Shown here: positions 17,148 to 51,759 of the stretch, piece by piece
How the letters are laid out: each line of letters starts with the position of its first letter
Position numbering within the stretch: the first letter of the stretch is position 1
NCBI RefSeq assembly: GCF_032050975.1
Contig: NZ_CP116967.1
Span: 1-64,000 of the forward strand
Length of the DNA stretch: 64,000 nucleotides
Direction: 5' to 3'
From: Candidatus Nitrospira allomarina
GTDB taxonomy: Bacteria; Nitrospirota; Nitrospiria; Nitrospirales; UBA8639
Translations under genes and position numbers: made by a program
The notes under the pieces: model-generated
Database searches by the model: none
Told to the model about the DNA's origin: nothing
The model's input: the letters and a program-made list of their open reading frames with translations, nothing else

Positions 17148-17160
17148 GTCCGCGTCCTCC

Positions 17161-18129: not shown

Positions 18130-18174
18130 TCTTCCTTACTCCTTATAAAGGGTTGTCCCCTAAATTAATATTCC

Positions 18175-22221: not shown

Positions 22222-23106
22222 TTAATCTGAACGTGCACACCTGAACCCAATCGTCTCGTCTCTGAAATCAGGAACCATAAAGCTTCTATTGGTTATCCTG
22301 ATATCGACTCCTTGGCTCGTATAGCCACTACCTCTCATTGTCTTGTAGGTAGAAGGAGACCGATTACTCGCCGGCGTAGCAATATTTTCTTGAAGGTAAA
22401 GATCTTCGACATACCAATTATCCGTCCATTCCATAACATTTCCTGCGCCGTCATAAACTCCAAATACACTTTGATCAAGAGGAAAAGCCCCCACCGGAGC
22501 CGACACAACATAACCATCGGCCTCTCCTGCAAAATTGGCAGGATGGCCGCTGAGACCCTCACCCCAGGGCCAGGTGCGACCATCTGTCCCTCGCATAGCC
22601 TTTTCCCATTCCTGTTCAGTAGGAAGACGCTTTCCTCTCCATCGACAATAATCATTCGCATCACTCCATGACACATAGGTAATCGGCTGATGAGGCCCTC
22701 GCAGCAAACCGAGCTTTTCGGCATAGCGGGAAGGCGGACCAGGCTGCCGATGTCCAGTAGCTTCAACAAACTCCATATACCGCTGATAGGTAACCTCGTA
22801 CCGATCAATCCAATATGCATCGAGATGAGCGACGTGCGCAGGCTTTTCATTGAATCCGCCTTGATTACTCCCAAGAATGAATTCCCCAGCAGGAATTTCA
22901 ACCATCTCATCTTCATTTGCCCGACCAGAAAGCGCCACCTCCCTTGATGCCTCAGATGATGTCTCCGAGGCTGAAGAAGGCTGAGATTGAAGATCGCGAT
23001 CCGGTGGCGATGGAGGAGCATCGGTTCCCCTTAATATTCCCAATACCGGCAACCCGGTCATAAATAACACTGCAATCAAAAAAATAAGTTTAAATCGACC
23101 GTCCAT
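22222..23106 (-). CDS. membrane-anchored FGE/SUMF1-like domain protein
   Basis: This 294-residue protein has an N-terminal helix, a Ser/Pro-rich linker and a sulfatase-modifying-factor-type domain from about residue 70, recognisable by EIPAGEFILGS, DAYWIDRYEVT, RLPTEQEWEKA and the closing GFRCA. The cysteine pair that formylglycine-generating enzymes use near the C-terminal end is missing, so it should not oxidise a sulfatase cysteine. Bacterial members without the cysteines often act in other oxidations or as structural partners. It is the last gene of the second oxidase module, after a paralogue. Confidence 0.88.
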   Translation of the reverse strand: MDGRFKLIFLIAVLFMTGLPVLGILRGTDAPPSPPDRDLQSQPSSASETSSEASREVALSGRANEDEMVEIPAGEFILGSNQGGFNEKPAHVAHLDAYWIDRYEVTYQRYMEFVEATGHRQPGPPSRYAEKLGLLRGPHQPITYVSWSDANDYCRWRGKRLPTEQEWEKAMRGTDGRTWPWGEGLSGHPANFAGEADGYVVSAPVGAFPLDQSVFGVYDGAGNVMEWTDNWYVEDLYLQENIATPASNRSPSTYKTMRGSGYTSQGVDIRITNRSFMVPDFRDETIGFRCARSD

Positions 23107-23187
23107 GTTCCCCTATTTCTGGTCCATCAAGGTTGCCTCGAGAAACTATGGGCGATTGGTCTCGCCGACGAGGAGTTTGATTATCGC

Positions 23188-24105
23188 TTATGAGGCTTGA
23201 GGAGTCTCAGTCGGAGGATCCTTTGCGCACCGAAATCCAACACTGGCATCGTTCCTCCACATTTTCGCTGCAAAACGCTTGGTCACCCTGGCGCCTATAC
23301 GAGATTCACGCCAAGAACCTCCACGAATGACTTTATTCTCGTCTTCGTCCTTTGGGCCAGGAGGGTCCCGATATGGAGCCTGCTGATAATAGTCTGGAGC
23401 ATAACTATCCATGACCCACTCAGCCACATTGCCGGTGGCATCATAGAGTCCAAATGGGCTTCTCCCTACTTCATAAGATCCCACGGGAGCTAAAAACTTA
23501 AAGCCATCCTCCTCCCCATCCACATTGGCAAATTGATAATCAAACTTATCACCCCAGGGATAACGGCGCTTTCCTTCTCCCCTTGCCGCTTTTTCCCACT
23601 CCGCTTCTGTGGGCAACCGCTTGCCAGCCCAGCGACAATACCCAAAGGCGTCGTTCCAGCTCACCGCCACCACCGGATAATCGGGCCCGATCAATTTGGC
23701 GACATCATCTTCAAAGACCGGCACCTTAGGTTTGTCCCGTTTCGTCATCTTGATATACCGCTCATAATCTGCCTGCGTGACCTCTTTAAGATCAATGTAA
23801 AACGTTTGGAGGTATACCGGATGGGGTGGCCCTTCATCGGGGTCCCCATCGGCAATGCCCATGGTAAATGGTCCTTCAGGAATTTCTACCATTTCACGAT
23901 TGTCATCCCCCACGAGGGTTTTATACATAGAAAAGTCTTGTGTGGGCATTGGCTGCAACACACGGACATTGGCCGATTGACCGGCCGACAACTCATCCAA
24001 ATCCTTTTTCCCTTTATAGGTCATAACAATCAACATCACGATCATCATGATAAAGGAGCCAAACACAAAAAGTATGGCCCCCATGAGGACCCGTTGATTT
24101 TCCAT
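23188..24105 (-). CDS. membrane-anchored FGE/SUMF1-like domain protein
   Basis: I chose the ATG at 24105 (305 residues), which has AGAGG ten bases upstream; an in-frame GTG lies eight codons earlier. One N-terminal helix is followed by an FGE-like domain with EIPEGPFTMGI, TFYIDLKEVT, RLPTEAEWEKAARG and RGGSWRES, ending GFRCA. The catalytic Cys pair of formylglycine-generating enzyme is absent. The domain should be periplasmic. It is paralogous to the next gene and to a third copy at 38 kb, and is embedded in the operon of the second bd-like oxidase. Confidence 0.88.
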   Translation of the reverse strand: MENQRVLMGAILFVFGSFIMMIVMLIVMTYKGKKDLDELSAGQSANVRVLQPMPTQDFSMYKTLVGDDNREMVEIPEGPFTMGIADGDPDEGPPHPVYLQTFYIDLKEVTQADYERYIKMTKRDKPKVPVFEDDVAKLIGPDYPVVAVSWNDAFGYCRWAGKRLPTEAEWEKAARGEGKRRYPWGDKFDYQFANVDGEEDGFKFLAPVGSYEVGRSPFGLYDATGNVAEWVMDSYAPDYYQQAPYRDPPGPKDEDENKVIRGGSWRESRIGARVTKRFAAKMWRNDASVGFRCAKDPPTETPQAS

Positions 24106-24153
24106 TACTATTTTGCCTCTCGGTTCCACATAATCAGCACAATTTCAGTTTAA

Positions 24154-24534: not shown

Positions 24535-25269
24535 TCATTCCCGCCCGAGATCACCGCTGGATGATTCAGATTGAACCTGAATCGAACCGAAATCCACCTC
24601 CACTCCCGGCCCCCCCAACAAGGAAATACCCCAGGCATGTGGAGCCGGTTCATGGTCATGAATCTTCAAAAAATCTTCATACACATTAACCCGTTCCTCA
24701 ACCCACTTGCCAAGGGATTCAGTCCCACTTCGAATGACAATTTCTGTTGAGCTAAACATGCCACCCTCCTTGACTGACCCTACCGGAAGGGTGGCACTCC
24801 ACACGTATTTCGTGTTCACGGGAATAAACATTAGGTCGACATCCAAGGACGGGTAGATTGCGGCCAGGAAATCGGCATCATCGGTAACACTCTGTATTCT
24901 CCAACGCCAGGTCAGAATAGGGTGTTGTTTCGGATCCCACGTTATATGCTTGGTATATACTCTTTGATTGGCGTTTTTCGCAGAAAGGAAAAAAGTCCCA
25001 CCCTCTTCTTGAATCGTATAGGTTTCATGGGCTGTGACCGTACTTCGCTGCGCTTCCCACCCTTGAGGGAAGCCTTTAGCATCAGGATGCTGAAAATCCT
25101 CCAACACCATCGAACTACTGGAAGATCCTGAGCTCGGGACCTCTTTGGCCCACGCGGCACTACTTCCATTTATCAGAAACCCCACGATCAACCATGTCAA
25201 ACAAGTCACGCTTAACCGGCTCGCCTTCACACCCTCTAAACTATTGTATTGCCAAAAACAGATTCTCAT
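24535..25269 (-). CDS. DUF3047-like exported protein
   Basis: This 244-residue protein has an N-terminal hydrophobic export or anchor segment (about 20-42, ending AAWA) and a soluble beta-rich domain with LTWRWRIQSVTDDADF and a later EDFLKIHDHEPAPHAWGI. That pattern is what I associate with DUF3047, a family of periplasmic proteins of unknown role. Its ATG overlaps the stop of the bd-like oxidase gene by one base (TAATG), which indicates translational coupling. Confidence 0.75.
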   Translation of the reverse strand: MRICFWQYNSLEGVKASRLSVTCLTWLIVGFLINGSSAAWAKEVPSSGSSSSSMVLEDFQHPDAKGFPQGWEAQRSTVTAHETYTIQEEGGTFFLSAKNANQRVYTKHITWDPKQHPILTWRWRIQSVTDDADFLAAIYPSLDVDLMFIPVNTKYVWSATLPVGSVKEGGMFSSTEIVIRSGTESLGKWVEERVNVYEDFLKIHDHEPAPHAWGISLLGGPGVEVDFGSIQVQSESSSGDLGRE

Positions 25270-27140
25270 TACGCGGATTCCTCTTCTGAAATGACCTGAA
25301 TCACCGGAGAAGGCCTTTCAAATTCAGCCGTTCGCCGTTCTACCACTCGCTGATCCCATCGGCTAAGCCAAAACACAAAAAAGACTGACGACCAAAAAAC
25401 AACCATATTGAGGGTGACCATTTTCGCGGCAAATCCCAGGGAAGGGGTAAATGCCCACGAGGATTGATCGGGCATTAATTCAGATATATGCCATCCCAAA
25501 CGACCCACAGACCTGATGTACCCCATCAACCCCATTACCCAGGTAAACGCGGCTGCGACCACAAACAGCGCCACAATCCCACGCGGGGTAATTCGTCCCC
25601 AACGCACAGGCCCATTTATATGGGCGCCCCGCAACATTAATCGATTCAATAATATCCCTCCAACTACCACCGTAGCGGTCGTCATCCCTTGAGGCGATGA
25701 AAGACCCACCCGAACATTTGCCGGAATATAGAATCCGTAAATGGCCAACCACACAATATTGGCAATCCCCATGAGAAATAACATCAATAAGAAAATATTT
25801 CCCTTTGATGCCCACTTGACTGTCATCACACGATTAGCTCGCCGATACAGGATGTAACTCAATGCGGTTAAACAGATCATGACGTTCACCGCACCATTCT
25901 TCGCGGACATCACACCGAATTGACCAATGACCGGGTGCTGGGCCGCACCCATCGCTTTCATCTCACTGCCACTCATGGCAATGGTATGCGGCGTAAACCA
26001 CACCAGGAAACACACCATCAGCGCAAAAAGGATCACCTTAAAGTGGAGATGAAAACGCTCTCCACCTTGAAGGCGCGCCAGGGATTGCCAGATGTAATAG
26101 TTAATTCCCAGAAACAAGACCCCAACCATAATCGCTTGGAGGACAAACAGCCATGACAACATGCCTCCCATCATTGCCATGCCCATCGTTTGCCTGAACT
26201 CAAAGACGGCCCTCATCAACCAGTAGCCGGCAAGCGGCATAGGGAGAAGCGCACACACCACTACTACAAGAAAAACATGTCCAACCCAATCGTAATATGC
26301 CCGGTCCTCCGCAGTTTTTGACATGAAAAACCGGTAGGTCGCATAGGCGACAACCACTGCGCCACCTGACATAATATCCGCCAAAAAACGGTGCGTATTC
26401 AGTGGATTCCATAATGGAGAATGCAGGAGATGCCACACATTCCCCAAAAAATGACCTTGGGCATCAACTCCGGCCGGGGCCATCATAAACGAAGCCCATG
26501 AATTCGCTAACAACAACAAAATGACTCCGGTTCCATTTGAGAGTACACCAAGAGTCATATGCACCCACTTCAGCGCCGGGGTTTTGAGGAAGTTCCATGT
26601 GTAATAGTAGAGGGCCAAGAGGAAGGCTTCACTCACAAACACCATGGCATACACCGGCATAACCGGCTTAAACGTCCCCCCCATGTAACTCATAAATCCC
26701 GGGTAAAGAGTCACAAAGGTTACCAGCATAAGAGAGCCTAACAAGGCCGTAATAGAAAGCGACAAGAGTGCTACCCGCAAAATATCATGGGCCAATCCAT
26801 CCAATTTCTGCTGGGTTGCCTGTTGTTTTCGTGTGATTCCTAAAAATTCCAATAACAAGGCAAACAAAGGAATAGATAAAACAAAGCCTCCGAAATATGT
26901 GTGTTGCTGAGTCACAAACCACACGACCAACCGGTTATCCACTAAAGGATAGGAGGAATAGCCCTGAGGACTTTCCGCGACGGACGGACTGGAAATAGAC
27001 CCTGGAGTTTGGTAGAAAATATCCTGGCTTGTCTGCCCTTCAGTCGAGGGCAAGGCCTGATTATCCAGGCCAAATGCCAACCCGGCCTGAAGCAAAAAGA
27101 AAAGCAGCACACCCACCAATGTTTTCAAAATTGTTCTCAA
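25269..27140 (-). CDS. second cytochrome bd-like oxidase subunit
   Basis: This 623-residue paralogue of the 656-residue protein has the same helix layout and conserved features: QQHTYFGGF with His80, NSWASFMMAPAG, WNPLNTHRFLAD, AQHPV.GQFGVMSAKNG and GYIRSVGR. It has an N-terminal signal-like helix but lacks most of the Gly/Pro-rich insert of its paralogue. The start is a TTG one base after the preceding stop codon. Unlike the first copy it has no cytochrome c genes beside it, only DUF420-like, PCP_red, DUF3047-like and FGE-like genes, so its electron donor probably differs. Confidence 0.85.
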   Translation of the reverse strand: MRTILKTLVGVLLFFLLQAGLAFGLDNQALPSTEGQTSQDIFYQTPGSISSPSVAESPQGYSSYPLVDNRLVVWFVTQQHTYFGGFVLSIPLFALLLEFLGITRKQQATQQKLDGLAHDILRVALLSLSITALLGSLMLVTFVTLYPGFMSYMGGTFKPVMPVYAMVFVSEAFLLALYYYTWNFLKTPALKWVHMTLGVLSNGTGVILLLLANSWASFMMAPAGVDAQGHFLGNVWHLLHSPLWNPLNTHRFLADIMSGGAVVVAYATYRFFMSKTAEDRAYYDWVGHVFLVVVVCALLPMPLAGYWLMRAVFEFRQTMGMAMMGGMLSWLFVLQAIMVGVLFLGINYYIWQSLARLQGGERFHLHFKVILFALMVCFLVWFTPHTIAMSGSEMKAMGAAQHPVIGQFGVMSAKNGAVNVMICLTALSYILYRRANRVMTVKWASKGNIFLLMLFLMGIANIVWLAIYGFYIPANVRVGLSSPQGMTTATVVVGGILLNRLMLRGAHINGPVRWGRITPRGIVALFVVAAAFTWVMGLMGYIRSVGRLGWHISELMPDQSSWAFTPSLGFAAKMVTLNMVVFWSSVFFVFWLSRWDQRVVERRTAEFERPSPVIQVISEEESA

Positions 27141-30679: not shown

Positions 30680-31474
30680 TTATTTAATCTCGAAATTGGC
30701 TTCGACGGTTCCCCCGTCCTTCACATCCACATCGGCTTCCACTTCCCCGGCAATAGGATGCCAGGCCTTTACTTTGTGCTTGCCGGCAGGCACGTCCTTG
30801 ATTTCAAAGGTTCCGTCGGCACCAGCCACGCCATAATGCGCATTGGTCACCGGCAAATACCAGCCTTGCATAAATTCGTGTTGGTCACATTGTAACCGCA
30901 ACACAGATCCCTTTTTCGACATTTTCAATTTGACGTTTTTTTCTAAAGAATCACCTTTTTTGGCCAGACCGATATTAAACTCGGTGCTGGACTTGGCACC
31001 CAATTGATCAAAGCTATGCGGGTTATGCAACACCCCTTCAGCCGACTTAGGATCGCTTGGATCAGCATCGTTATTGACTACCTTAAACAGGCCCTTACTT
31101 ACGGCCACTCCCGTATACGGAATAAACTCGCATAATTCAGCCTCGACCACTTGCGGGGCCTCCTTGTCGGCTTTGTCTAAGAATGCTTTGTCTTGAATAT
31201 CCGTAACCGCCACCACGGCATTCTTTAAACCCTTGCTTCCATCTACTTCCACTTCCTTCAGCAACCGGGTATTCCCATCCGCACTTTTGCTCTCATTTTT
31301 TTTGCAAAAATCCACATTGGGAAATTTTGAGAAGGCAAATTCTTTCGGTGGGGGAACTTCTCCGGCAAATGTGACTTTCCCTTTAATAGTTCCCCCCGCC
31401 TGGGCGACTAATGGGGCAGCAATAAGAATGCAGCCCACTAAAAATGACATAGTTAAAGACTGACGGTTCCTCAT
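30680..31474 (-). CDS. periplasmic amicyanin-type cupredoxin fused to carboxypeptidase-regulatory-like domain
   Basis: This 264-residue protein has a clear signal peptide (cleavage near Ala26). The central part is cupredoxin-like with a possible copper site His150 or His153, Cys196, His199 and Met202 in CDQHEFM, the CxxHxxM spacing seen in amicyanin. The C-terminal 55 residues form a carboxypeptidase-regulatory-like beta-sandwich (GTFEIKDVPAGKHKVKAWHP). It is likely a periplasmic electron carrier or copper-binding protein. It is transcribed alone from its own promoter with a structured leader and ends at a strong terminator. Two diverged paralogues lie at 36-38 kb. Confidence 0.83.
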   Translation of the reverse strand: MRNRQSLTMSFLVGCILIAAPLVAQAGGTIKGKVTFAGEVPPPKEFAFSKFPNVDFCKKNESKSADGNTRLLKEVEVDGSKGLKNAVVAVTDIQDKAFLDKADKEAPQVVEAELCEFIPYTGVAVSKGLFKVVNNDADPSDPKSAEGVLHNPHSFDQLGAKSSTEFNIGLAKKGDSLEKNVKLKMSKKGSVLRLQCDQHEFMQGWYLPVTNAHYGVAGADGTFEIKDVPAGKHKVKAWHPIAGEVEADVDVKDGGTVEANFEIK

Positions 31475-33847: not shown

Positions 33848-35191
33848 TTAAAGACCGATCTCCTTTTCCAAAATCTTCACAATAGCGGCGGCGGCAGTCA
33901 CCCGCACCGCTTCATCAGTATCTCGCAGGAGGCGCTTTAAGGTCGGGAGGAGCGTACGATCGCCAATACGACCCAATGCGCGGGAGGCCCCAATCCTAGG
34001 ACGAGGCAATGGATCATTGAGAGCCAATATAAGAACATTGAGAACGTTAGGACCTTTTCCATTTGCAAGCGCCTTGACCGCACCCGACCGAATGGCCGGA
34101 TTTTGGTCATTGAGGAGATGCTGAACGGTATCCTTGACCACTGAATAAGGGGCTCCTGACCGTAACAATGACGCCACGGCCGCCGCTTGCACACCGGAAT
34201 TCGAATCGGCCAACGCCCTGGTTAACGGGGTTAACACTTGATGTGGTTCGTAATACCCCATGCTAAAAGCTGCCACACTCCGCACCGCAGGAATACGATC
34301 AAACAAAACTGCCTTCAGTGTCTGCAAAGATTCAGGAGCATGCAATTTTCCCAAGGATGCAATGGCCGCAGCACGGATAGACGGTTGAGAATCGGAAATA
34401 GTTTTTTCCAAGATCGGTATCGCACGACGATCCCCTAACTCACCAAATGCACGGATAGCCGCGCCCCGTTCATACCCTTCTTCGCTGGTCGCCCCTTGCT
34501 CCAAACGAACCCAGTATTCCTTATGACCGAGCTCATATAATGCTCTTGCTGCAGCAATTTGGACCAGATGCTGCTCATCGTTCAACGATGGTCTAATGAG
34601 GGGCTCAAGACTCCTGTCGCCGGATTGTCCTAGCCCAATTAAAACGGTTGCCCGCACCAAACCGGCTCCGTCCTTCAATGCTTCACGAAACGCCTTGGAA
34701 CGCTGCCCTGCTTTTCTTTGCCCTAAGGCTTCTGCCACTAATGCTCTAATCATGCCGGTTTCATCAGTTAAGCCTTTTTCTAAATATTCCACGGCCTGAT
34801 CGGATTCGATTTCCTTTAATGCCGTATAGGCAGCGCCCCGCATTTGTTCCCGCATGTCGGAACGGACAGGCAATATACTGGCAATGGCAAGCTGGCGTAA
34901 GAACGGTTCGTCTTCCCGTTTTGTCCCGGCAATGGCTTTCTCATAAACCTCAATGGCTTCGGGAGTCTTTCCCAAGCGCGCTAATGCTAGGATGTATAGA
35001 CGAGAAGCCTGCAAGAGGGGCGTGCTCTCTTTGTATAAAGGCTTAACAAGGTCAACGACCTGTTGAAATTGATCCTGATCGTAGGCTTTTTGCGCCTGAA
35101 TGAGGGTTGAATCATGTGCCTCTTCCGCCAACACCGACCCTGAGAGAGCCCACAGAACACCAAGAACGAGCACAACATTCATACGATTCAT
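33848..35191 (-). CDS. exported HEAT-repeat protein
   Basis: A signal peptide starts at the ATG at 35191 or, better placed behind AAGGA, at 35182 (MNVVLVLGVLWALSGSVLA). A frame reaching 35341 would overlap the upstream gene. The product has about 447 residues: a short TPR-like segment (FQQVVDLVKPLYKES, ALARLGKTPEAIEVYEKA) followed by roughly ten HEAT/PBS-lyase-type repeats with recurring DxxxxVRxxAAxALG patterns. It is probably a periplasmic scaffold. It lies in the operon of the two tandem cupredoxins, which suggests a role with the copper proteins. Confidence 0.85.
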   Translation of the reverse strand: MNRMNVVLVLGVLWALSGSVLAEEAHDSTLIQAQKAYDQDQFQQVVDLVKPLYKESTPLLQASRLYILALARLGKTPEAIEVYEKAIAGTKREDEPFLRQLAIASILPVRSDMREQMRGAAYTALKEIESDQAVEYLEKGLTDETGMIRALVAEALGQRKAGQRSKAFREALKDGAGLVRATVLIGLGQSGDRSLEPLIRPSLNDEQHLVQIAAARALYELGHKEYWVRLEQGATSEEGYERGAAIRAFGELGDRRAIPILEKTISDSQPSIRAAAIASLGKLHAPESLQTLKAVLFDRIPAVRSVAAFSMGYYEPHQVLTPLTRALADSNSGVQAAAVASLLRSGAPYSVVKDTVQHLLNDQNPAIRSGAVKALANGKGPNVLNVLILALNDPLPRPRIGASRALGRIGDRTLLPTLKRLLRDTDEAVRVTAAAAIVKILEKEIGL

Positions 35192-35231
35192 CCTTAATTG
35201 TTCACCCCCATCTCCTAGGCATAACATATTT

Positions 35232-35906
35232 CTACCCTCTCGGAATCGGGGCTTCCTGAGCCTCAATAATTCGATAGCCCAAAGGCGCTTCAAAGTAATA
35301 ATCTGGTTGCGAAGAAACCACCACATGACGATATTCCACAAACCAATCCCGATCCTGACTTAAGAGCTTCAAGAGAATCTCCCGTTGAGGGTCCACCCAT
35401 TCGAAATAACGTTCCAGTTGGCCAAACCGATCCTGGACCTCCACATCATAAAGCAGGGCCGATTGATCGCCTACCACGGATTCCCCAATAACCGTTCGAC
35501 TCGTCTCTCCTTCCAACTTGGCAGAAAATGGTAACAAATAATCCAAAGTTAGGGGAACGCTCACAATCATTCGGCGCTGCGAAAACACATACCAGGTTTT
35601 TTGTTCATCCAATCGAATAATGAGGATACTCGCATAGCCTAACTCTGTTCGTATTCCTCCAGCCGGTTCAATACGATATCGATCATTTTTCACAAACAAC
35701 TGGGCATTGGCGATACGTCCTCCGGTTTTCCACATCAGTCTGGCCGAAAATTCTTTGGGACCATTGTGGGGGAAATTAGAAGAACTGGTAAAGCCCCAGG
35801 CTAACGGGAACCAGGCCACCGTTCCGAAAATGGCACAAACAAGGAACCCTGCAAACTTTTTGTCACAAGCTCGGGAGAGAAGGAAAGAAATGTCTATCCA
35901 TTTCAT
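35232..35906 (-). CDS. exported LolA/DUF4412-like lipid-binding-fold protein
   Basis: This 224-residue protein has an N-terminal hydrophobic export segment (about 20-40) and a single beta-rich domain with FSARLMWKTGGRIANAQLFV, QKTWYVFSQRRM and FEWVDPQREILLKL. This pattern resembles the LolA-like/outer-membrane-lipoprotein-sorting fold and DUF4412. The ATG overlaps the stop of the preceding cupredoxin gene by four bases, so they are translationally coupled. It may bind a hydrophobic ligand in the periplasm; the family call is tentative. Confidence 0.75.
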   Translation of the reverse strand: MKWIDISFLLSRACDKKFAGFLVCAIFGTVAWFPLAWGFTSSSNFPHNGPKEFSARLMWKTGGRIANAQLFVKNDRYRIEPAGGIRTELGYASILIIRLDEQKTWYVFSQRRMIVSVPLTLDYLLPFSAKLEGETSRTVIGESVVGDQSALLYDVEVQDRFGQLERYFEWVDPQREILLKLLSQDRDWFVEYRHVVVSSQPDYYFEAPLGYRIIEAQEAPIPRG

Positions 35907-36829
35907 GGCCTTTGGTGTTCAACCAGAGGCTCTATCAAAACGGGGTGGCCCAAGGCAGCGGGAGTAAATCTCGGCGGCGTCCGGATGGTGTGCGCTGTCC
36001 AACGACCCACGGGAGATTCTAAGGAAAAATCCTTCCGCACGGTTTGGTTTGGTTCCACGGAAAATTCATAAATCTGCTCATGTTTGACACTTGGATGCCA
36101 GGCCCGAATGCGATAACTTCCAGGCGGGAGTGAAGAAATGACATACTCTCCCTTATCATTAGTAAAGCTGAAATAGGGATTATCCACCGCAATCGCCCAG
36201 CTTTCCATGTAGGCGTGGAACCCGCACTGCATCACAAATGTTTTTCGGCCTTTGCTCAGTTGAAATTGATGAACCAAAGATTGCCCCGGCAGGTGCTCAT
36301 GTGTCGCATGGATATTCTCACGTTGATGCCGAGGATTAAAGGGTAGAGGAGAATTAAATAACACCCGCGTCCCTTGGCTCAACGACGTCTCATAGGCTTG
36401 AATATCATGCATGACCGGATCCATATTCACCACTTCAATTCCATGCTCATTACGCACCACCGTCGTAAAGGGCAGAAATTGGCAATCCCGAGCTTCCACC
36501 CTCGGAATAGAAAGGGAAAAAGGTTTCCCGGCCTTAACGCCTTCAACCACCATCACGACCCCTTGAAGTTGATTCTCATCATTCACCACGAAATCCTTAA
36601 GTAGCCGCCAGCCCTGACCATCAGAAATGCGGCCGCAATACTCTGGATCAGGGAACGTCACCAGATTATACGCTTTAGGAGAAGGCGGAATGCCCTTGAG
36701 GGTCACAGTACCGACAATAGTGGCCCCGTCCGTTACCTCAATAACTTCATAAGCGAAAGCGGTCGAACTGGTTATCCAGAGGAGACCTATGACGGCAATT
36801 TCTACCATTCGATTTTTATTCATGATCAA
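35903..36829 (-). CDS. periplasmic amicyanin-type cupredoxin/carboxypeptidase-regulatory-like protein
   Basis: This 308-residue protein starts at a TTG that has GAGGG six bases upstream (an ATG lies two codons later). It has a signal peptide ending SSTAFA. Its cupredoxin region contains a probable type-1 copper site: His141 in PVMHDIQ, Cys202, His205 and Met208 in CGFHAYM. The C-terminal part is a carboxypeptidase-regulatory-like domain (GEYVISSLPPGSYRIRAWHP). Paired Cys65 and Cys116 may form a disulfide. It is one of two tandem paralogues, nine bases behind the other, and probably carries electrons or copper in the periplasm. Confidence 0.83.
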   Translation of the reverse strand: MIMNKNRMVEIAVIGLLWITSSTAFAYEVIEVTDGATIVGTVTLKGIPPSPKAYNLVTFPDPEYCGRISDGQGWRLLKDFVVNDENQLQGVVMVVEGVKAGKPFSLSIPRVEARDCQFLPFTTVVRNEHGIEVVNMDPVMHDIQAYETSLSQGTRVLFNSPLPFNPRHQRENIHATHEHLPGQSLVHQFQLSKGRKTFVMQCGFHAYMESWAIAVDNPYFSFTNDKGEYVISSLPPGSYRIRAWHPSVKHEQIYEFSVEPNQTVRKDFSLESPVGRWTAHTIRTPPRFTPAALGHPVLIEPLVEHQRP

Positions 36830-36838
36830 CTCATGCCC

Positions 36839-37756
36839 TCAGGGAACTTGCCGTCGTAACGACGGAATAATCTCAACGCCCTCTCCAAGCATTTCCAGTC
36901 CAAAATGTGGGTTCTCCTGCATTTCATGCACGCTTCTCCTCCCTTGGGGAGATTCATATTGGAAATCCAATGTCAGCGTTTTTCCCGGTTCCACACGAAC
37001 GGTTTTTTCCAAATAGGTTTTCATACCAGGGTGCCAGACAGTCACTTGATATTCTCCTGCGGGAATATCGCGAATTTCGTAGGCCCCATCCTCTTTGGAA
37101 ATCGAATAATAGGGATTATCCACCACTAATCCCCATGAAAACATATAGGGATGAAAACCACATTGCATGACAAAAACATCCCGTCCTTTTCGCAAATGGA
37201 TTTTTTCAATCATCGGTTTTCCGGGCAGATGGGTATGGACGTTTTTTCCAAACATACCAACCACATTATGAAAGGGGTTCATGGGCAATGGACGATTAAA
37301 CAAGACCCTGGCCCCTCGTTCTCTGGCCGTTTCATATCCCTGAATATCATGCTCTACCGGATCCATATTGATCACGGTTATTTCATCCTGGTCCTTTAAC
37401 ACATTGACAAATGGTAAAAAATCACAATCAATGGCTTCAACCTCCACCTTTGGTAAAGAAAACGGTTTGCCTTTTTCTACCCCTTTCACCATCACTACCG
37501 CATCCTTAAGCGACCCTTGAGGCCCAATAATAAAATCCTCAACAATGCGCCACCCAGTACCGGTAGAAATTCTTCCACAATATACGGCATCCGGGATCGT
37601 GACGAGATTAAACGCCATCGGTCTTGGGCGTTCCCCATGAATGCGAACATGGCCTTGAATGGCCCCCCCATTTCTGACCGGGCCCTCCTGATAGGCCAAC
37701 CCCATGGATGACACATTCATCAGGAACATCACGATCACCATGACCCTCATCATCAT
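36839..37756 (-). CDS. periplasmic amicyanin-type cupredoxin/carboxypeptidase-regulatory-like protein
   Basis: This 305-residue paralogue is first of the operon running to 31.8 kb. It has a signal peptide (MMMRVMVIVMFLMNVSSMGLA) and a cupredoxin region with ligands His136 (PVEHDIQ), Cys199, His202 and Met205 in CGFHPYM. A His-containing loop HTHLPG precedes the Cys ligand, and a C-terminal carboxypeptidase-regulatory-like domain follows. The AGGAGGG upstream of the ATG gives good translation. The 300-base upstream region shows no convincing promoter to me. Confidence 0.83.
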   Translation of the reverse strand: MMMRVMVIVMFLMNVSSMGLAYQEGPVRNGGAIQGHVRIHGERPRPMAFNLVTIPDAVYCGRISTGTGWRIVEDFIIGPQGSLKDAVVMVKGVEKGKPFSLPKVEVEAIDCDFLPFVNVLKDQDEITVINMDPVEHDIQGYETARERGARVLFNRPLPMNPFHNVVGMFGKNVHTHLPGKPMIEKIHLRKGRDVFVMQCGFHPYMFSWGLVVDNPYYSISKEDGAYEIRDIPAGEYQVTVWHPGMKTYLEKTVRVEPGKTLTLDFQYESPQGRRSVHEMQENPHFGLEMLGEGVEIIPSLRRQVP

Positions 37757-38055: not shown

Positions 38056-38997
38056 TCAAGGAGTTGAGGTCGAATGGGTAAGATCGTCTTTCAAGCCAGC
38101 AGCACACCGAAAGCCAAGCCAGTTAGCCTGTGTCTCAGGAGCGGTTCCATTGCGCTGAGCGGTCCGTACGGTCGGAGTACTGTCCATCCAGCCACCTCCA
38201 CGAAATACCCGATGTTCACCGGTAGAAGGGCCTTGGGGATTCCTGTCCGGAGCAGTTTGATAATAGGCCGGATCGTACCAATCGTTCACCCATTCTGCGA
38301 CATTCCCTGCCATCTGGAAAACGTTATAGGGACTGATACCGATTTCATACTTATCGACAGAAATAATAGGTGGATAAAGAAGCAACCGCTCGGGACGATC
38401 ACGGACCGGACCGGATATGCCCGATCTCCCAAAATTGGCTCGCGTCAGACCTGCCGGCGTATTTCCCCACGGATAAATTCGTCCATCTGTTCCCCTGGCC
38501 GCTTTTTCCCATTCGGCTTCCGTAGGGAGCCGCTTGCCGGCCCACCGGCAATAGGCATCAGCTTCATACCAGGTGACATGCATCACGGGATGATGGGCCA
38601 TACTCTCCTGAAAGTTTCCCCCATCAAATTTCCAATCCGGCAATGGCGGACGGCCCGTGTCAACGACAAAACGCAAATATTCCAAAGCGGTTACTTCATA
38701 GGCATCAATCTCAAAAGCATCCAGATACACCTGGCGTTGAGGCATCTCAGGCCGGTAAGCCTTCCTATCAATTTTCTTATTACTTCCCATCGTAAACCAA
38801 CCGGCTGGAATCACCACTCTCTTTTCTTTGGTAGGCCATTGCGTCCGCTGCAAAGCCAACCTTTTGCCCTCCTCCGTCCACTCCGGCCGTATGTCAGACA
38901 CATCCAGTGCCCACGACATCATTCCGGAAATGAGGGTAAACCCAACCACCATCAAGCCCATTACCACAAGGTACTTCCTGCTTTGTCCTTCACGCAT
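38056..38997 (-). CDS. membrane-anchored FGE/SUMF1-like domain protein, third copy
   Basis: The ATG at 38997 lies behind GGAGGGG; an upstream TTG falls inside that ribosome site and is rejected. The product has 313 residues: an N-terminal helix (about 12-30) and an FGE-like domain with VIPAGWFTMGS, DAFEIDAYEVT, RLPTEAEWEKAARGTDG and FRGGGWMDS, ending GFRCA. The formylglycine-forming Cys pair is absent. It is paralogous to the two copies at 22-24 kb but sits among the copper-protein genes. Confidence 0.88.
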   Translation of the reverse strand: MREGQSRKYLVVMGLMVVGFTLISGMMSWALDVSDIRPEWTEEGKRLALQRTQWPTKEKRVVIPAGWFTMGSNKKIDRKAYRPEMPQRQVYLDAFEIDAYEVTALEYLRFVVDTGRPPLPDWKFDGGNFQESMAHHPVMHVTWYEADAYCRWAGKRLPTEAEWEKAARGTDGRIYPWGNTPAGLTRANFGRSGISGPVRDRPERLLLYPPIISVDKYEIGISPYNVFQMAGNVAEWVNDWYDPAYYQTAPDRNPQGPSTGEHRVFRGGGWMDSTPTVRTAQRNGTAPETQANWLGFRCAAGLKDDLTHSTSTP

Positions 38998-39426
38998 AGA
39001 CCCCTCCAAATTAATCCGACGACTAAGACGCCACTGATGGAAAAATTGGAGAATTCACCATCCCAACGACAAACACTGATCTCTTCGTGTTGTTCTGGAA
39101 TAAGGCATTTGCTGGGAACCCCAATATTTGTGTTTCAGTATGGTCGTTTAATGGACCAAATCGTAGCTTCACCTTTCAGTGAGGTCAAGGCGTCTAAGAC
39201 AACCACCCAAATCCGCCTTTACTCATTGCCTGAATGGATTTAGTCCGTACTCAGGATTCAAAAAATAATACGAAAGATGGATTATCCAGATATTCCGTAT
39301 ACGAGAAAGTCTTCCTACATGAATATTATAACAATTGATCTGTTACCATTTTCAAATTTCTTTAAAATTGAACCCTGAGTTGCTTGGCTTTAAAAAACCG
39401 AAGACGTCCGTTTTAATATACCTAAA
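38998..39426. other. intergenic region without recognised gene
   Basis: No convincing coding frame or RNA gene is seen. On the minus strand a TATAAT (39330-39325) with a TTGAAA 19 bases upstream may be the promoter of the FGE-like gene, which would give a leader of about 320 bases. The stretch ends at the terminator of the multicopper oxidase gene. Confidence 0.4.
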
Positions 39427-39460
39427 GAAAAAAAATGGGGGATTCTTGCGAATCCCCCAT
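39427..39460 (-). terminator. rho-independent terminator of the giant multicopper oxidase gene
   Basis: An 11-bp perfect stem (ATGGGGGATTC at 39435-39445 with its complement at 39450-39460) around a four-base loop is followed on the minus strand by eight T. It lies 26 bases after the stop of the multicopper oxidase gene. Confidence 0.94.
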
Positions 39461-39486
39461 TCGTAAAACCTTAATGGTGAAACTGC

Positions 39487-42400
39487 CTATTTGGCTGCCA
39501 CAGGCAACACCCGGCCAGTCTCCACCACGTCGTTCGAAGCTTGCTTCACATCCCTGGAACCTCCTTCAAGAGGCAGGATCCGTTGGTCATTTTTAGGTAG
39601 GACCCTTAAATACCCCCACTGACCCGACTGGGAGTAAGGTAGGCGCTGATTATTCCAGACATAATCTGCGGGAAGCATATCACGCCCTCCAGCGGACGGA
39701 ATAAACACGTCAATCGTTTCCGAACCAGCGAATTCGACCACACTGATTTCGTCGGCTCCCGGCATGAAGGGTTCAATTGGCCATTCATGCTTTTCCACAC
39801 TAAACATCCCGTTTTGTTCGCTGCTGGCACCGAACACATGAATCCTCACAGGATCTCCTGCATGTGCGTGGATAATCGGAGTAACCGGATCTTGTGGATT
39901 ATCCACCTCACAGGGTTGAAACATGCGTCCAAGTGTACAGCCTGCCTCTTCTCTGTGAAGATAGGGTTCGGAACGATAATTGACACCGGTGAGGCCGGCG
40001 ACATTCTGAACATACGGCATAAAACTGGTACCGATGATGTTGTCTTCATCTTGAAAGAGTAAAGCTACATCACGATAATTTCGGCGGTTTTCTTGACCGG
40101 GAATGGTCTGATCAACAATCACATCCGCTTCCCAGCTATTTTTAAGGGAAATGTCGGCACCGGTCTTTGGATCCCGGTATTGCGACCCTTTCGGTCCGAT
40201 GATGACTGCCCCGAACAAGCCGTTTCGCGGGTTTAACATCACATTTCCCCAATCCCAAACCAGAGATGAAATCTCCCCGTTAAATGGATCAGCGTAATAG
40301 GTGTACGTCTTTGATTCCCCTGGAGCAATCGTTTGATCCCCTGGGTTATTTCCGACGTTGGCCCCCAATGAATCTTTCGGATTAAAGGCCAGTGAAATTG
40401 CGGAGAAGGATGCACGGCTCTCCTTCATTTTATTCTTGAGATTTACTTTGATGCAATCTCCCACGTTTGCTCGAATAGTCAATGGCATCGGATGGTAATC
40501 CCCTGCCACTTTAGTGACTTCATCTTCAAGGACGTAGATCTTGCCCTCAGGATTTCTTAGCTCGATGGTTCTTTCAAAGTCGATCTCAATGGATTCCGGA
40601 GCACTAGGATTAAAACTCATCCCTGGAAAGTCCATGGCGACCACATTAAATGATTTCACAGGAGCCTCTTCAGGACAAACAGGGAGGGGTTTGGGAATCT
40701 CATTTCGACCTGAATACCCTGCAGGGAGCGGTTTCAGATCCTCGGTTTCCTTATCCAAGACTCGGAGAATTCCCCAACCTCCCTCGGAGAATTTTGAAGA
40801 CCGTCCATTAAAATGAATATAGTCTCCAGGCTGCAGACGAGGACCGCCTGCCTTTGGAACGACCAAATCATATCGCTCGGCAATACCAATATGCATGGAA
40901 TTTTTCCTATTGGCATCACCGGCATACCGCTCGCTTAAAAACGTGTGCCCTGAAATGGTCCAGGTCATCGTTTCATTCATGAGGGTATGCAAAAGACGGA
41001 ATACCACGGTATCTCCCAGGTAGGCCCGTACCAACGGCGTGTCGGGATCACCGTGCTCAGTGCTACTAAATATTTTTGAAGCATCGGGATTCACGGCCAA
41101 ACGTTGGGCAATGGGTTCCGCCCTGAAATTGAGGCCGCTTCCCGTCGTATGCGTCCCTCCATTGAGGAAGGGCATTGGGGTCATGAGAATTTTTTCCGGC
41201 ATCATAAATGACACCGTTTTCCCTGCTTCCAAGGCTACCTCGACAGGTTGCCCAGGCGGGTTACCAGCCGTCACAATGTTAACGGTATGTGGAACGGTAT
41301 CATGAACTTGGACCACCATTTCCCGGAAGCTATTATCTACACCATAGCCGACCGGTTCAACCGTATGAATATCTGCAATGGGACCACTCCTGACTAGTTT
41401 CCCAGTCTTAGGATCATGGTAAGTTGATCCCACCGGTTCCACAACTAATGTTCCGAATCCACCATGTGGCCACGTGGTGGCCCCGAAGGCATGGTCATGC
41501 CAGAACACCGTTCCCACGTCAGCATCCGCCCAAAGTCGTGAGCGAACAAACTCCACGGTCACGATATCCCCGGCGGGATGATCATGCTGCAGGGGTCGAA
41601 CAAAGGAAATGGTATCTCCTTTAATAGATTTTATGCGACGGATCTCGTTGCCTTTGACATTATCGGCACCGACCAGCAATTCGGTATTGACATGGTATTG
41701 CGCTGCATTTTTAACCTTAATGCTGGACTCACCCTTTTTTGCCTTGCCCTTTAAAACGGTATTCATGGGCACGGGCAAACCTTTTTTAGTCTTTTTCTCC
41801 AGCATGGTAAACGGACGAACAGACTGTTCGTAGGAAAACCCGGTAATCACTCCATCCGATGCCTGGTTGTCAAATTGGAGAAAATGTGGATGAATGTTAA
41901 TTTTAGAGGATTGGAAATTTGTAAAATCGTCATCCAACCATTCGCTGGTCAACGTATAGTCCACACAATCATAAATGTTGGCACGAAACACCAACGGCAA
42001 TTTTTTGTCGTTATTTTTTCGGACTTCTTCTTCCTCTTCATGGAGGACATAAATCAACCCGTAAGGATCAATGACAGGAGCTTCCTTACCCTGGGCCCCG
42101 GCCATTTCAATGGGAGTATTGATGAAATGAATGTTGTAATATTTTCGTCCGGCATTTTCCGGACACAAACTCCACCGGCCATTTTCTCCCGGTTTGGCAG
42201 GCTCAGAGGTTCGTAGACCATTTTCATCCTGATGAATCATTTCCAACCATGGGGCCGGATTGTGATTTGGTGGGAACATGACCCGTTTACCGAAATGTGG
42301 AGTCAAATGCGGCCATGATACCTTCCCCGTCCTTGGCTCAAAGAGAATTGGGCGCCGTTTTCCTGGAGTGGGCGAATGGTATTTTGGGTTCTCGATTGTG

Positions 42401-44364
42401 CTCTCTTTCTCAGACATGGCTTTATGACCATCCCAGGCCCAATCCAATACCGTCGCATCATAAGAAATAATTTGGCCCTTTTCGTCATCTTTATGACCGG
42501 GTTTCCCTTGGGCCGGCAACTGAATTTCCACCCATTCCTTAATATTGACGACCGCTGGGTTCGATTTCCAATTGCTCTTTCCCTTTTCTACGATGGTGAA
42601 TGTTTTCCCAAACCAATCGACGGTTTTACCAATCAATTGATCGGAAGTGACCCCCACATGCATCCGACCTTTTCTATCAGGCAATTCCCTGAGGTTTGGC
42701 ATGACATCCGTACGGTTGTCATCTGTCTGGAGGGTATTATATACCCGCCAATACCCCCACATTCCTGCCACATAATGATGAGCGACATGGCAGTGAAACA
42801 GGAAGTCACCGGCCAGTTGTTGGCATAAGCCAGACCCACATTCCGTCTCCAAATCCAACGCTTCTGATGGCCCGATCACTTCTACATCAACCCGGTCAGT
42901 TTTTGTCCTGATAACCGGATATTTAACCGGACCATTTTTCGCGGCATGCCACATCGGCATTTGATCAATCGCCCGCGGGCTTCTTGGCCATCGGATCGTC
43001 CCGCCATGCGGATGGTGAGAATGGAATACCTCAGACCCTCCGTGAACCAACCTGAACTTGGCAGGGTCCCCAAGATAGGATCGAGGAATCGTCGTTGGTG
43101 CATCACCAAAGGTATAGGAACTATATCCCATAGATTCGTCCTCAAACCCGAAATATTCATGCTGCACATGCATGTTGTTGATGCCAAATGGCTCACTTCG
43201 ATAATTAAGAGCTCGAGCTCCTGGCCGATAGGCATCGGTGAGAGGATCCCGTTGGGGTAAGAAATCACCATGTTTGTTTACCGGACGAAACGCCTCGTCA
43301 CCCACCTCATGATAAATCAACACGAACTCACGGAAATCAGGTCCCGTTCCATTTTTAATTATGGCTTGCCACCCACTGGCCATAGGGGTTGGATCTCCGT
43401 CTCCCAACGGATTCAGATATTCGGAACCATGCGGTTCAACCACGAATGTCCCCATAAGACCCATGACCGTCAACTCCCGATCATTACTAAATGTATGAAA
43501 TTGGCGACCACCCTCCTGGGTGTCAGGATGAATGTACCATTCCATTTCTACAACTTGCCCTTCTTCAGCCACCGTGTCGCGATTGGTTGTCGTAGCAGGC
43601 TGCCCGGTCTTGCTGATAACCATATTCGATCCATGGATGTGAAGACTGGCCTCCTCACCAAACTCAAGTTGGTTTCGGAAGGTGAATTTTACACAATCCC
43701 CTTGATTTCCTCTGATCACCAGAGGTTGAATCCATTGGTCTTGAAGACCGTTCGTGACCGCACCCGGGTCACCATGGCCATCCACCTCTCTCGCTTCTGC
43801 ATTCTTGGCTTCCTCTTCCCGCACCTTATCGATATTTTCGGTTAGCACATACATATAGCCAGGATAGTAATCAAGCCATTGATTGAGAGTAATCTCGGCA
43901 TTGATGGCCGAGATATCATATTCCCTGACCGGCGCAGTTGCAGGACAATTTCCGCCACTCGCTGCAACAGGCTCCACATTACGATCCGAGGCCAACAGTA
44001 AATCCTGGCCTCCCGCCCCATATTGGTGCATATTGGTCATCGTGTTGTAAAAACCGGTAGCCGTATGGTCACCACCATGTTGAGCGCCAGACTCATTCTC
44101 CATTCTCAGCATGATCCGATCATGTTGGCGTTCCACCATGGCCGCTCGATTCGGCCGGCCTTCCTTGGTGTCCTCCATGATGGTCTGGCCCTTCAAACGC
44201 TCCGCCCATTCAGGTGACTCTTGATGAACCATTCCCGTGCTATGAATAACTTTGTCCTGATTTTCTTCAGCCAGGAGGGTTCCTCCTGATAAAAAACTGG
44301 ACCCCCCGACTAACAATCCAATGGAAAGTGTGGTGATCGCTTTCCTAGATTTCATGTGAAACAT
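39487..44364 (-). CDS. giant exported multicopper oxidase, MofA/MnxG-like layout
   Basis: This 1,625-residue protein has an N-terminal signal peptide (to about 32) and several cupredoxin-type domains. Copper motifs are HIHG (242-245), HSHHPHGG (448-455), HCHVAHHYVAGM (524-535, with the Cys of a type-1 site between trinuclear ligands), HPHFLQFD (825-832) and HDH (956-958). The final third has no complete copper set. The HCHxxxH motif, normally C-terminal in laccases, here lies in the first third and two HxH motifs follow it, a rearranged order. Size and order recall MofA (about 1,660 residues) and MnxG, linked to Mn(II) oxidation. Fe(II) or Cu(I) oxidation remains possible. It is a single-gene transcript with its own promoter and terminator. 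Confidence 0.9.
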   Translation of the reverse strand: MFHMKSRKAITTLSIGLLVGGSSFLSGGTLLAEENQDKVIHSTGMVHQESPEWAERLKGQTIMEDTKEGRPNRAAMVERQHDRIMLRMENESGAQHGGDHTATGFYNTMTNMHQYGAGGQDLLLASDRNVEPVAASGGNCPATAPVREYDISAINAEITLNQWLDYYPGYMYVLTENIDKVREEEAKNAEAREVDGHGDPGAVTNGLQDQWIQPLVIRGNQGDCVKFTFRNQLEFGEEASLHIHGSNMVISKTGQPATTTNRDTVAEEGQVVEMEWYIHPDTQEGGRQFHTFSNDRELTVMGLMGTFVVEPHGSEYLNPLGDGDPTPMASGWQAIIKNGTGPDFREFVLIYHEVGDEAFRPVNKHGDFLPQRDPLTDAYRPGARALNYRSEPFGINNMHVQHEYFGFEDESMGYSSYTFGDAPTTIPRSYLGDPAKFRLVHGGSEVFHSHHPHGGTIRWPRSPRAIDQMPMWHAAKNGPVKYPVIRTKTDRVDVEVIGPSEALDLETECGSGLCQQLAGDFLFHCHVAHHYVAGMWGYWRVYNTLQTDDNRTDVMPNLRELPDRKGRMHVGVTSDQLIGKTVDWFGKTFTIVEKGKSNWKSNPAVVNIKEWVEIQLPAQGKPGHKDDEKGQIISYDATVLDWAWDGHKAMSEKESTIENPKYHSPTPGKRRPILFEPRTGKVSWPHLTPHFGKRVMFPPNHNPAPWLEMIHQDENGLRTSEPAKPGENGRWSLCPENAGRKYYNIHFINTPIEMAGAQGKEAPVIDPYGLIYVLHEEEEEVRKNNDKKLPLVFRANIYDCVDYTLTSEWLDDDFTNFQSSKINIHPHFLQFDNQASDGVITGFSYEQSVRPFTMLEKKTKKGLPVPMNTVLKGKAKKGESSIKVKNAAQYHVNTELLVGADNVKGNEIRRIKSIKGDTISFVRPLQHDHPAGDIVTVEFVRSRLWADADVGTVFWHDHAFGATTWPHGGFGTLVVEPVGSTYHDPKTGKLVRSGPIADIHTVEPVGYGVDNSFREMVVQVHDTVPHTVNIVTAGNPPGQPVEVALEAGKTVSFMMPEKILMTPMPFLNGGTHTTGSGLNFRAEPIAQRLAVNPDASKIFSSTEHGDPDTPLVRAYLGDTVVFRLLHTLMNETMTWTISGHTFLSERYAGDANRKNSMHIGIAERYDLVVPKAGGPRLQPGDYIHFNGRSSKFSEGGWGILRVLDKETEDLKPLPAGYSGRNEIPKPLPVCPEEAPVKSFNVVAMDFPGMSFNPSAPESIEIDFERTIELRNPEGKIYVLEDEVTKVAGDYHPMPLTIRANVGDCIKVNLKNKMKESRASFSAISLAFNPKDSLGANVGNNPGDQTIAPGESKTYTYYADPFNGEISSLVWDWGNVMLNPRNGLFGAVIIGPKGSQYRDPKTGADISLKNSWEADVIVDQTIPGQENRRNYRDVALLFQDEDNIIGTSFMPYVQNVAGLTGVNYRSEPYLHREEAGCTLGRMFQPCEVDNPQDPVTPIIHAHAGDPVRIHVFGASSEQNGMFSVEKHEWPIEPFMPGADEISVVEFAGSETIDVFIPSAGGRDMLPADYVWNNQRLPYSQSGQWGYLRVLPKNDQRILPLEGGSRDVKQASNDVVETGRVLPVAAK

Positions 44365-47413: not shown

Positions 47414-47911
47414 CTACTTGGTCAGAATCAATAACTGTCCACCCAGGTGGGCTGCATGTAATTGACACTTGTAGTTCAATAAATTGTTCGAGGTCACATA
47501 CGTGAGATCACTCATGGGAATACCGATATATTTGGTTTCCCCAGGTGCCAAAACCAGCTTAATATGCATCGACGTTGGAGCGGCAAAAGCTGAATCAGCG
47601 GAAAGCTCAAAACCATGTTCTTTGTCCATATTGTTGGTTACTTTGAACAAAATAGGTCTTCCTGCTCTCCCACCTGTCGCAGAGGCCACAAGACTCAAGA
47701 TGGATGTCGCGGGGTACCAGACTTTCTTTCCACCAATTTCCATGGCATTAAACTCAAGATCAACATCCAATTTTGTAAACGGCTGGCCCACGACTGACCC
47801 CGTTTCAAGGTCACCAATTTCCACACCACCGGACTGTAACGCAAATGCGCCTGAACTACCGACCGCAACGAAAACCGCACTTAAAAGGACGGATAGAAGC
47901 ACTCTGTGCAT
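47414..47911 (-). CDS. small periplasmic cupredoxin-like protein with CxxHxxH site
   Basis: This 165-residue protein has a signal peptide ending near Ala24. The domain from about 85 follows the cupredoxin pattern: NNMDKEHGFEL with His99, LAPGETKYIGI, then CQLHAAHLGG with Cys149, His152 and His155. Spacing matches amicyanin CxxHxxM but the axial Met is replaced by His. That would give unusual copper properties if the site binds copper. It is a single gene with its own terminator. The copper call is inference from motif spacing. Confidence 0.75.
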   Translation of the reverse strand: MHRVLLSVLLSAVFVAVGSSGAFALQSGGVEIGDLETGSVVGQPFTKLDVDLEFNAMEIGGKKVWYPATSILSLVASATGGRAGRPILFKVTNNMDKEHGFELSADSAFAAPTSMHIKLVLAPGETKYIGIPMSDLTYVTSNNLLNYKCQLHAAHLGGQLLILTK

Positions 47912-50247: not shown

Positions 50248-51759
50248 TCATGGGTTCGTCGATGGCCCCTGAGACGCGAGGAGATAGCCCTGGGCAAGCA
50301 ACTCGGCTTCCTGTTTGACAAGTGAACTCGCCCCAGGAAACACCTGACCGATAAATTCCACAAATACATTAATTTTGAGCAGGAAAAAATCATATTCGGA
50401 TTCAGATGTTCGAGGATGGGCAAACCAAAATTCAACGAATTGTTCCAAGGAAATCCCATATTGATCCAAAATAGCACAGGCACTGGGAAACATTACCTTC
50501 ACATCTCCACCCCATGAGAGAATCTCATATGGTAAATACTGAGTCGCATACACATGAAGCCCCTCCTTCATTTCGGCATCCCATTGGCTAGGAACATCCA
50601 GCCGGCCACTCAGGACTTCACTGACCAATGCCATGCATTCTCTATATTGGCGGGTTAATACATCACGAGTTTCCCGAGAAGGCTCGACGTTTTCTACTGG
50701 ACAGGTTGCTGCCTTCTGAAGATTTGTGGCGGGCGAAGGTACCCGAGCAGGCACATGCACAAAGGGCTCCATCATCTTCAATACCGTTTTCATTTCCCGA
50801 CAAATGAGCGGTATTGTCTTATTATCGACTTCTAAGGCGATGCCTTTCAGATTGAGTAGACGAGATTCCCTTATCACCCGAGCCAAAAGCATAAGTAATT
50901 CGTCCGGAATGGGAGCTTCATGGGCGTCGATCCAATCCGGAGGATTCTCAAATGGTCCTGACCCCACATGTGTCGGTATATGCGGATGGCAATCCAGACC
51001 TGCGATATGAATTTGGATCACTCTCTCCAGGGGAAATCTCTTAAGAAAATCTTCGAAAAATGATTCCAGGCACTGGTTCCGCCAAGCACCCGAATATCGA
51101 TAGACCGTCCAAACATGCCCTAGATCCAGGACCAACCCACAGGGCGCTTTGCCGGTAATGTTGGAGAAAAATTCTGCATACGGCATTTCACCCATCAAAA
51201 AATAGGTTAATGGTGGGTTCTCCAAAAGCAGCAATGGCGAATTAGCCTGGGGCCCCCATGCACATTCATCAAGCTGCAACTGAACGTTCCACGCCTGGTA
51301 AGCCGTAATGTCAGCAGAAGCTCTGGTAAAAACAGGAGGCAAATAGGTCCCAAATGAAAGACCGGCTATTTCTTTGGCCGCACATTCTTGATTGACCCAA
51401 TGAGCCTTTAACATTCGAAGATTGCAGGCGATAGCCCGTAATCGCCCTTGAGAATTGTATGCGGTGTCCCAATCAGGTTGCGTGACCCAAACCCCTTCGG
51501 CATGGTAAGCCAAAGGAGTGTCAGGAAACCGAGCTCGAACCATCTCCAAAGCTTCAGAAGCCGCATGAAAAATTTCAAGATAACCCATAGGGATTTGTTC
51601 ACGTCGAAGTTCCTGATACAAGTCAAAGACATCAGGAGAATACACATCCACCGATAAGCCCACACCCAGAAATGGAATCCTGCCTGCGCGCCGAAGAAAC
51701 TCTTCATGGACAGCCTCTCGACGTGATGGGTCGGTTGAATAGCTCAAACGTTTCTTCAT
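50248..51759 (-). CDS. DUF692 family protein with C-terminal extension
   Basis: This 503-residue protein has a TIM-barrel DUF692 domain in the first 330 residues, with LGVGLSVDVY, YHAEGVWV, LLLENPP, LVLDLGHVW, QIHIAGLDCH and DAHEAPIPDE. Characterised relatives (MbnB, TglH) are iron enzymes that modify cysteine or peptide precursors. The metal-ligand His/Asp/Glu pattern is present. The last 150 residues are an extension with no recognised domain. No obvious substrate peptide gene lies next to it, although the 265-base space upstream was checked. Confidence 0.85.
   Translation of the reverse strand: MKKRLSYSTDPSRREAVHEEFLRRAGRIPFLGVGLSVDVYSPDVFDLYQELRREQIPMGYLEIFHAASEALEMVRARFPDTPLAYHAEGVWVTQPDWDTAYNSQGRLRAIACNLRMLKAHWVNQECAAKEIAGLSFGTYLPPVFTRASADITAYQAWNVQLQLDECAWGPQANSPLLLLENPPLTYFLMGEMPYAEFFSNITGKAPCGLVLDLGHVWTVYRYSGAWRNQCLESFFEDFLKRFPLERVIQIHIAGLDCHPHIPTHVGSGPFENPPDWIDAHEAPIPDELLMLLARVIRESRLLNLKGIALEVDNKTIPLICREMKTVLKMMEPFVHVPARVPSPATNLQKAATCPVENVEPSRETRDVLTRQYRECMALVSEVLSGRLDVPSQWDAEMKEGLHVYATQYLPYEILSWGGDVKVMFPSACAILDQYGISLEQFVEFWFAHPRTSESEYDFFLLKINVFVEFIGQVFPGASSLVKQEAELLAQGYLLASQGPSTNP

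Follow-up and report, generated by a model that had tools for sequence, protein, structure and literature searches.

The multicopper oxidase gene and its architecture

The window, which is the whole stretch of DNA analyzed here, comprises the first 64,000 nucleotides of contig NZ_CP116967.1 from Candidatus Nitrospira allomarina. A gene on its minus strand (39487-44364) encodes a MnxG-type multicopper oxidase (MCO) of 1,625 aa. An earlier note on this DNA had described this open reading frame as encoding a large multidomain oxidase akin to MnxG, and had named Mn(II), Fe(II) and Cu(I) as candidate substrates of the secreted protein. The frame is real: it starts with ATG, follows a strong ribosome-binding site (by eye) and stays open throughout. 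Residues 1-33 (44266-44364, minus strand) were assigned by inspection as an N-terminal Sec-type signal peptide, and export of the protein is plausible from this sequence.

Only weak Cu-oxidase matches were obtained with Pfam. The alignment to MnxG that had been suggested as a check covers the full length: in a phmmer search against the PDB, MnxG (9bxa) matched the MCO in six stretches (E 1.5e-76), and the profile of the MCO family matched it with E 2e-104 in stretches spanning the whole length. The AlphaFold model of domains 1-4, built with 40 homologues whose rows were too alike, is poor (pLDDT 55); its best Foldseek match is 9bxa (E 7e-23, 1,093 columns), with ceruloplasmin as the runner-up (E 1e-7). 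Judged by sequence, the protein is distantly related to Bacillus MnxG over its full length, and an architecture of the MnxG type is very probable, with complete type 1 (T1) and trinuclear ligands. The gene is a fresh member of an already-known kind.

Cupredoxin domain 1 (residues 147-312; 43429-43926) has a Cu-oxidase_3 match. Domain 2 (about 340-545; 42730-43347) holds the T1 copper and half of the trinuclear cluster, and domain 3 (736-975; 41440-42159) holds the remaining half. Domains 4 (about 1005-1205; 40750-41352) and 5-6 (about 1235-1600; 39565-40662) were recognised by homology to MnxG, the latter two without copper ligands. All of these are on the minus strand, as are the motifs within them.

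The copper ligands were assigned by aligning Nitrospiria representatives with distant homologues from plasmids, including the Priestia megaterium MnxG, which was verified and adjoins verified mnxE and mnxF. All 12 expected ligands, four for T1 and eight trinuclear His, are present in the MCO. They reside in HxxHxH at 448-453 (43006-43023; T1 H448, trinuclear H451 and H453), HCHxxxHxxxxM at 524-535 (42760-42795; trinuclear H524 and H526, T1 C525, H530 and M535), and the trinuclear motifs HPH at 825-827 (41884-41892) and HDH at 956-958 (41491-41499). Each ligand is kept in 134-135 of 135 distinct Nitrospiria homologues, in which the mean column identity to the MCO is 77%, and the 12 are also kept in Priestia megaterium MnxG and most other distant homologues. 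Such conservation far exceeds what chance would give. A missing T1 or trinuclear ligand, named in the note as an argument against the assignment, was not found at the sequence level, and the predicted ligand set supports an O2-reducing oxidase.

The motifs reported at 242, 448, 524, 825 and 956 are exactly at these positions. Their order was regarded as rearranged and is indeed that of MnxG, but it is not new, since bacterial six-domain MCOs have been described with the same arrangement, in which domain 2 houses T1 and the trinuclear cluster is shared between domains 2 and 3 (PMC3600357). Further HxH motifs, overlooked by the note, were found at 451, 927 and 1499. Residues 451 and 453 are true copper ligands; at 927 and 1499 HxH is not conserved in the homologues, so neither was accepted as a copper site. 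The motif HIHG at 242-245 (43630-43641), aligned as a trinuclear half-site, is not supported as a functional site. It is decayed and conserved at 80%, and a second trinuclear site was rejected because the partner motif reads HTF or HSY in Nitrospirales and domain 6 is without partner ligands. The second motif of domain 1 is complete (HSH) mainly in homologues from other orders. HIHG therefore probably lies outside copper binding, and we read it as the relic of a ceruloplasmin-like site.

The conserved locus and its cupredoxins

The MCO gene is followed on the minus strand by a FGE-sulfatase-like gene (38056-39009), found at this spot only in the subclade with the window's MCO type, and by a gene for a partner cupredoxin with a carboxypeptidase-regulatory-like domain (36839-37756). 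Then come, on the same strand, a second cupredoxin of the same family (35903-36829), a conserved locus protein (35232-35906), a HEAT-repeat protein (33848-35341), a third cupredoxin of the family (30680-31474), two more locus genes (25269-27140 and 19556-21526), two cytochrome c genes (17161-19488) and an alternative NxrC-like protein with cytochrome c and EB_dh domains (15276-17231). The copper and cytochrome genes that had been noticed nearby are present. The locus headed by the MCO comprises cupredoxins, HEAT, O-methyltransferase (OMT), DUF420, PCP_red, two cytochrome bd-like oxidases, two cytochromes c and the alternative NxrC-like protein. The order MCO, cupredoxin, cupredoxin, HEAT, cupredoxin, OMT, DUF420, PCP_red and bd-like_4 is conserved; N. 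defluvii and N. moscoviensis share it with many others. The counterpart of the locus in N. moscoviensis is the region of alt_NxrC_2 and bd-like_3/4, where core genes of the alt_NxrC_2/bd-like_3 cluster are among the 40 most transcribed (PMC6606698). We found no earlier report of the MCO heading a conserved locus toward alternative-NxrC and bd-like oxidase genes.

Several other genes of the window were also noted. A small exported protein at 47414-47911 has a KCQLHAAH motif and no Pfam match. Most of the GTDB family retains it next to the MCO locus, and it resembles a cupredoxin whose ligand set is unusual. Three FGE-sulfatase-like genes are present in the cluster (22222-24129 and 38056-39009), and relatives of the third adjoin MCO genes in several Nitrospira. 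At 50248-51759, near gltBD, a MNIO-type (MbnB/TglH/ChrH) enzyme of 503 residues is encoded, which is unusually long for its family.

The partner cupredoxin at 36839-37756 carries the T1 ligands H and C-x2-H-x2-M, which are invariant among 45 sequences of its family (H115, C178, H181 and M184 in the numbering of the aligned fragment). Its AlphaFold model is confident (pLDDT 88), and the fold matches copper nitrite reductase (NirK), purple cupredoxin, pseudoazurin and amicyanin. With a His and Cys/His/Met set in a predicted cupredoxin fold, it qualifies as a T1 cupredoxin. A cupredoxin gene on the same strand is found within 1.6 kb downstream in 86 of 108 distinct MCO copies, these being the distinct ones with enough downstream sequence; in seven of the 22 exceptions, all of the window's MCO type, the FGE-like gene lies between the MCO and the cupredoxin. 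All three MCO loci of this genome have the cupredoxin neighbour, and the cupredoxin family has only eight loci in 4.55 Mb. The neighbour is absent beside the MCO in all plasmid outgroups, and some MCO paralogue groups are also without it, e.g. copy 2 of N. defluvii. A cupredoxin with a complete T1 site beside most MCO copies has, as far as we found, not been reported earlier.

The strong terminator described in the note was recovered 3' of the MCO gene (39433-39462, minus strand, -22.6 kcal/mol, z -5.1). The promoter claimed for the gene was not: a sigma-70 scan of the 274-bp gap upstream gave no site, and a TTGACA at about 44491, seen by eye, has a poor -10. As a general rule, control as a single gene was rejected on the grounds of the conserved MCO-cupredoxin order; most relatives have the cupredoxin gene directly after the MCO, within a long conserved locus. 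Such control would be at most local to the subclade with the FGE gene in between.

Distribution of the family

The MCO family was found in 58 of 60 sampled Nitrospirales genomes, with N. moscoviensis and N. defluvii among the named hits. Such genes have already been reported in Nitrospira, Nitrospina and Manganitrophaceae; Luecker 2013 (PMC3578206) noted a MCO of this type in NXR-linked clusters of both Nitrospina gracilis and Nitrospira defluvii. In our sample of the phylum, strong matches came from the same class and only weak ones from other classes. Members of other orders of Nitrospiria also carry the family, and published taxonomy places the order to which the Mn-oxidizing lineage belongs in this class. 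More widely, the family extends to Streptomyces, haloarchaea and Methylobacterium, where its gene settings are different. One giant homologue on a Streptomyces plasmid (4149-9623, 33% identity) has a similar domain-3 insert and adjoins copC.

The present genome carries three MCO copies, one of them split. In this third copy (contig 1, 330269-335096) a frameshift leaves two overlapping ORFs, and the cupredoxin neighbour is intact.

The domain-3 insert and a probable replacement at the locus

Domain 3 contains an insert of about 80 aa (41560-41802, minus strand) between both of its His motifs. These extra residues between the trinuclear motifs were found in all Nitrospiria members examined, and MnxG is without them. 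Most other members of the GTDB family, along with some members of the same genus, have at the same slot an MCO copy with a LysM domain (PF01476, E 1.3e-13) inside this insert. The nested LysM amounts to a cell-wall anchor within the catalytic domain of an MCO. No earlier report was found of this LysM-bearing version at the same slot in sister genomes.

The clade to which the window's MCO belongs is placed outside that of the LysM versions, each with SH-aLRT support of 100, and a tree uniting the two was rejected (AU p 3e-8). The neighbouring genes unite the window's genome with its LysM-bearing genus-mates with full support. A second MCO copy of the genome, 2.5 Mb away, is without LysM, yet falls inside the LysM clade. 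The nearest match of the FGE-like protein (38056-39009) outside the subclade is 76% identical and comes from a soil Nitrospirae contig on which an MCO is also encoded. The simplest reading of these trees is an in-place replacement of the locus's MCO in one subclade; differential loss of old paralogues would be a weaker alternative. For the apparent in-place replacement of the LysM version by the present type together with the FGE-like gene, no earlier report was found either.

Proposed function and alternatives

We infer that the MCO and the adjoining blue-copper protein (36839-37756) form a two-protein electron-transfer unit. From the positions of the ligands, electrons would enter at the T1 copper of domain 2 (H448, C525, H530, M535) and pass over the HCH bridge to the trinuclear cluster where domains 2 and 3 meet (H451, H453, H524, H526, H825, H827, H956, H958), which would reduce O2 to water. 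The blue-copper protein may either feed the T1 site or pass on electrons from a reductant, and the candidate final electron source is a metal ion (Mn(II) or Cu(I)) or the respiratory chain. The unit would belong to the periplasmic copper and cytochrome equipment around nitrite oxidation in Nitrospirales. Nitrite oxidation is not the whole story, since the MCO and cupredoxin also occur in class members outside Nitrospirales, where no NXR-associated genes were seen beside them. A functional link between the two proteins has, in our estimate, about an even chance; their linkage could also reflect copper delivery or shared regulation instead of electron transfer. The fixed blue-copper neighbour favours protein-to-protein transfer. 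The full reading, a complete exported MnxG-type MCO as one half of an electron-transfer unit with the adjoining cupredoxin, we put at a little under even.

The enzyme might instead be a Mn(II) oxidase like MnxG, with Mn(III) or Mn oxides as its products; the reaction could be incidental or serve to remove superoxide, as has been suggested for Nitrospina and Nitrospira. Among solved proteins, MnxG is the closest in both sequence and fold, Mn(III)-based ROS defence was proposed for this very gene family (Luecker 2013, PMC3578206), and Nitrospira MAGs encoding MnxG have been linked to Mn removal in sand filters, where Mn oxidation was suggested (PMC12070406). The Manganitrophaceae, with two novel MCOs each, and the carriers in other orders of the class also point this way. 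However, the MCO scores 132.8 bits against the cut-off of 3100 for the NCBIfam MnxG equivalog NF041487, and MnxE and MnxF, with queries verified as such and no distant positive control, had no match in the genome; for these two reasons the MCO was not filed as MnxG itself. Moreover, the 80-aa insert of domain 3 is foreign to MnxG, the relatives in Streptomyces, haloarchaea and Methylobacterium sit in other gene settings, and Mn oxidation has been shown for no cultured member of the family-level group. We regard a Mn(II) oxidase as somewhat unlikely.

Periplasmic Cu(I) oxidation, which would protect or supply the copper-rich respiratory chain, conforms to the many blue-copper genes around the MCO and to distant homologues that adjoin CopC and YcnI genes in Streptomyces or lie near CopC in Priestia; many MCOs are cuprous oxidases. 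Yet the neighbours of the MCO are electron carriers and not chaperones, the scanned genes next to it include none recognised as a copper ATPase, CopB or Cus gene, and the genome has other, ordinary MCO-domain proteins that could oxidize Cu(I), so that we consider this role quite unlikely. A cupredoxin scaffold that is structural or inactive, like that of coagulation factor V, would fit domains 4-6 without copper ligands and the decayed half-site of domain 1, but the near-absolute conservation of all 12 catalytic ligands across the class makes it very improbable.

The electron-transfer unit, our preferred reading, can be extended to a wider picture, which we consider fairly unlikely when taken as a whole. 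Nitrospirales would possess a periplasmic O2-reducing branch at the edge of nitrite oxidation, consisting of a giant MnxG-type oxidase and its own blue-copper protein; the oxidase would have been swapped in place between lineages, and in the main lineage of the family it would be tethered by a LysM nested in the trinuclear domain. Nitrospira are the dominant organisms in nitrite oxidation and in water filters, and whether they contribute to Mn removal is debated (PMC12070406). The family, present in nearly all sampled Nitrospirales genomes and usually with a blue-copper partner, provides a concrete pair of candidate proteins that may take electrons from Mn(II), Cu(I) or the respiratory chain. 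The name MnxG in annotations is no proof of Mn oxidation.

Comparison with known systems

MnxG of Bacillus sp. PL-12 (9bxa) and of Priestia megaterium is homologous to the MCO over the full length, and both have T1 in domain 2, the trinuclear cluster between domains 2 and 3, and ligand-free domains 4-6, over which the identity is about 28%. The MCO differs from MnxG in being 400 residues longer, in the insert of domain 3 and in a longer linker between domains 2 and 3. It has a cupredoxin partner instead of MnxE and MnxF, which were not found in the genome in a search with no distant positive control.

Ceruloplasmin and hephaestin have the six-domain cupredoxin plan that is predicted for the MCO. 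In ceruloplasmin the trinuclear cluster lies between domains 1 and 6, whereas domain 6 of the MCO is without ligands and domain 1 is decayed. A ceruloplasmin-type assignment was rejected, as HCHxxxH is lacking in domain 6 and the half-site of domain 1 is incomplete and 80% conserved.

The partner protein shares the cupredoxin fold with amicyanin, pseudoazurin and purple cupredoxin, and its T1 set of His and C-x2-H-x2-M with amicyanin. In contrast to these three, it is fused to a carboxypeptidase-regulatory-like beta domain and adjoins a giant MCO.

The NXR-linked MCO genes of Nitrospina gracilis and Nitrospira defluvii (PMC3578206) are of the same type as the window's and sit in a cluster of the same type, and the syntenic copy of N. 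defluvii is 75% identical. Compared with the MCO of N. defluvii and Nitrospina gracilis, the gene at the locus in the window's subclade is of a different lineage and has the FGE gene alongside.
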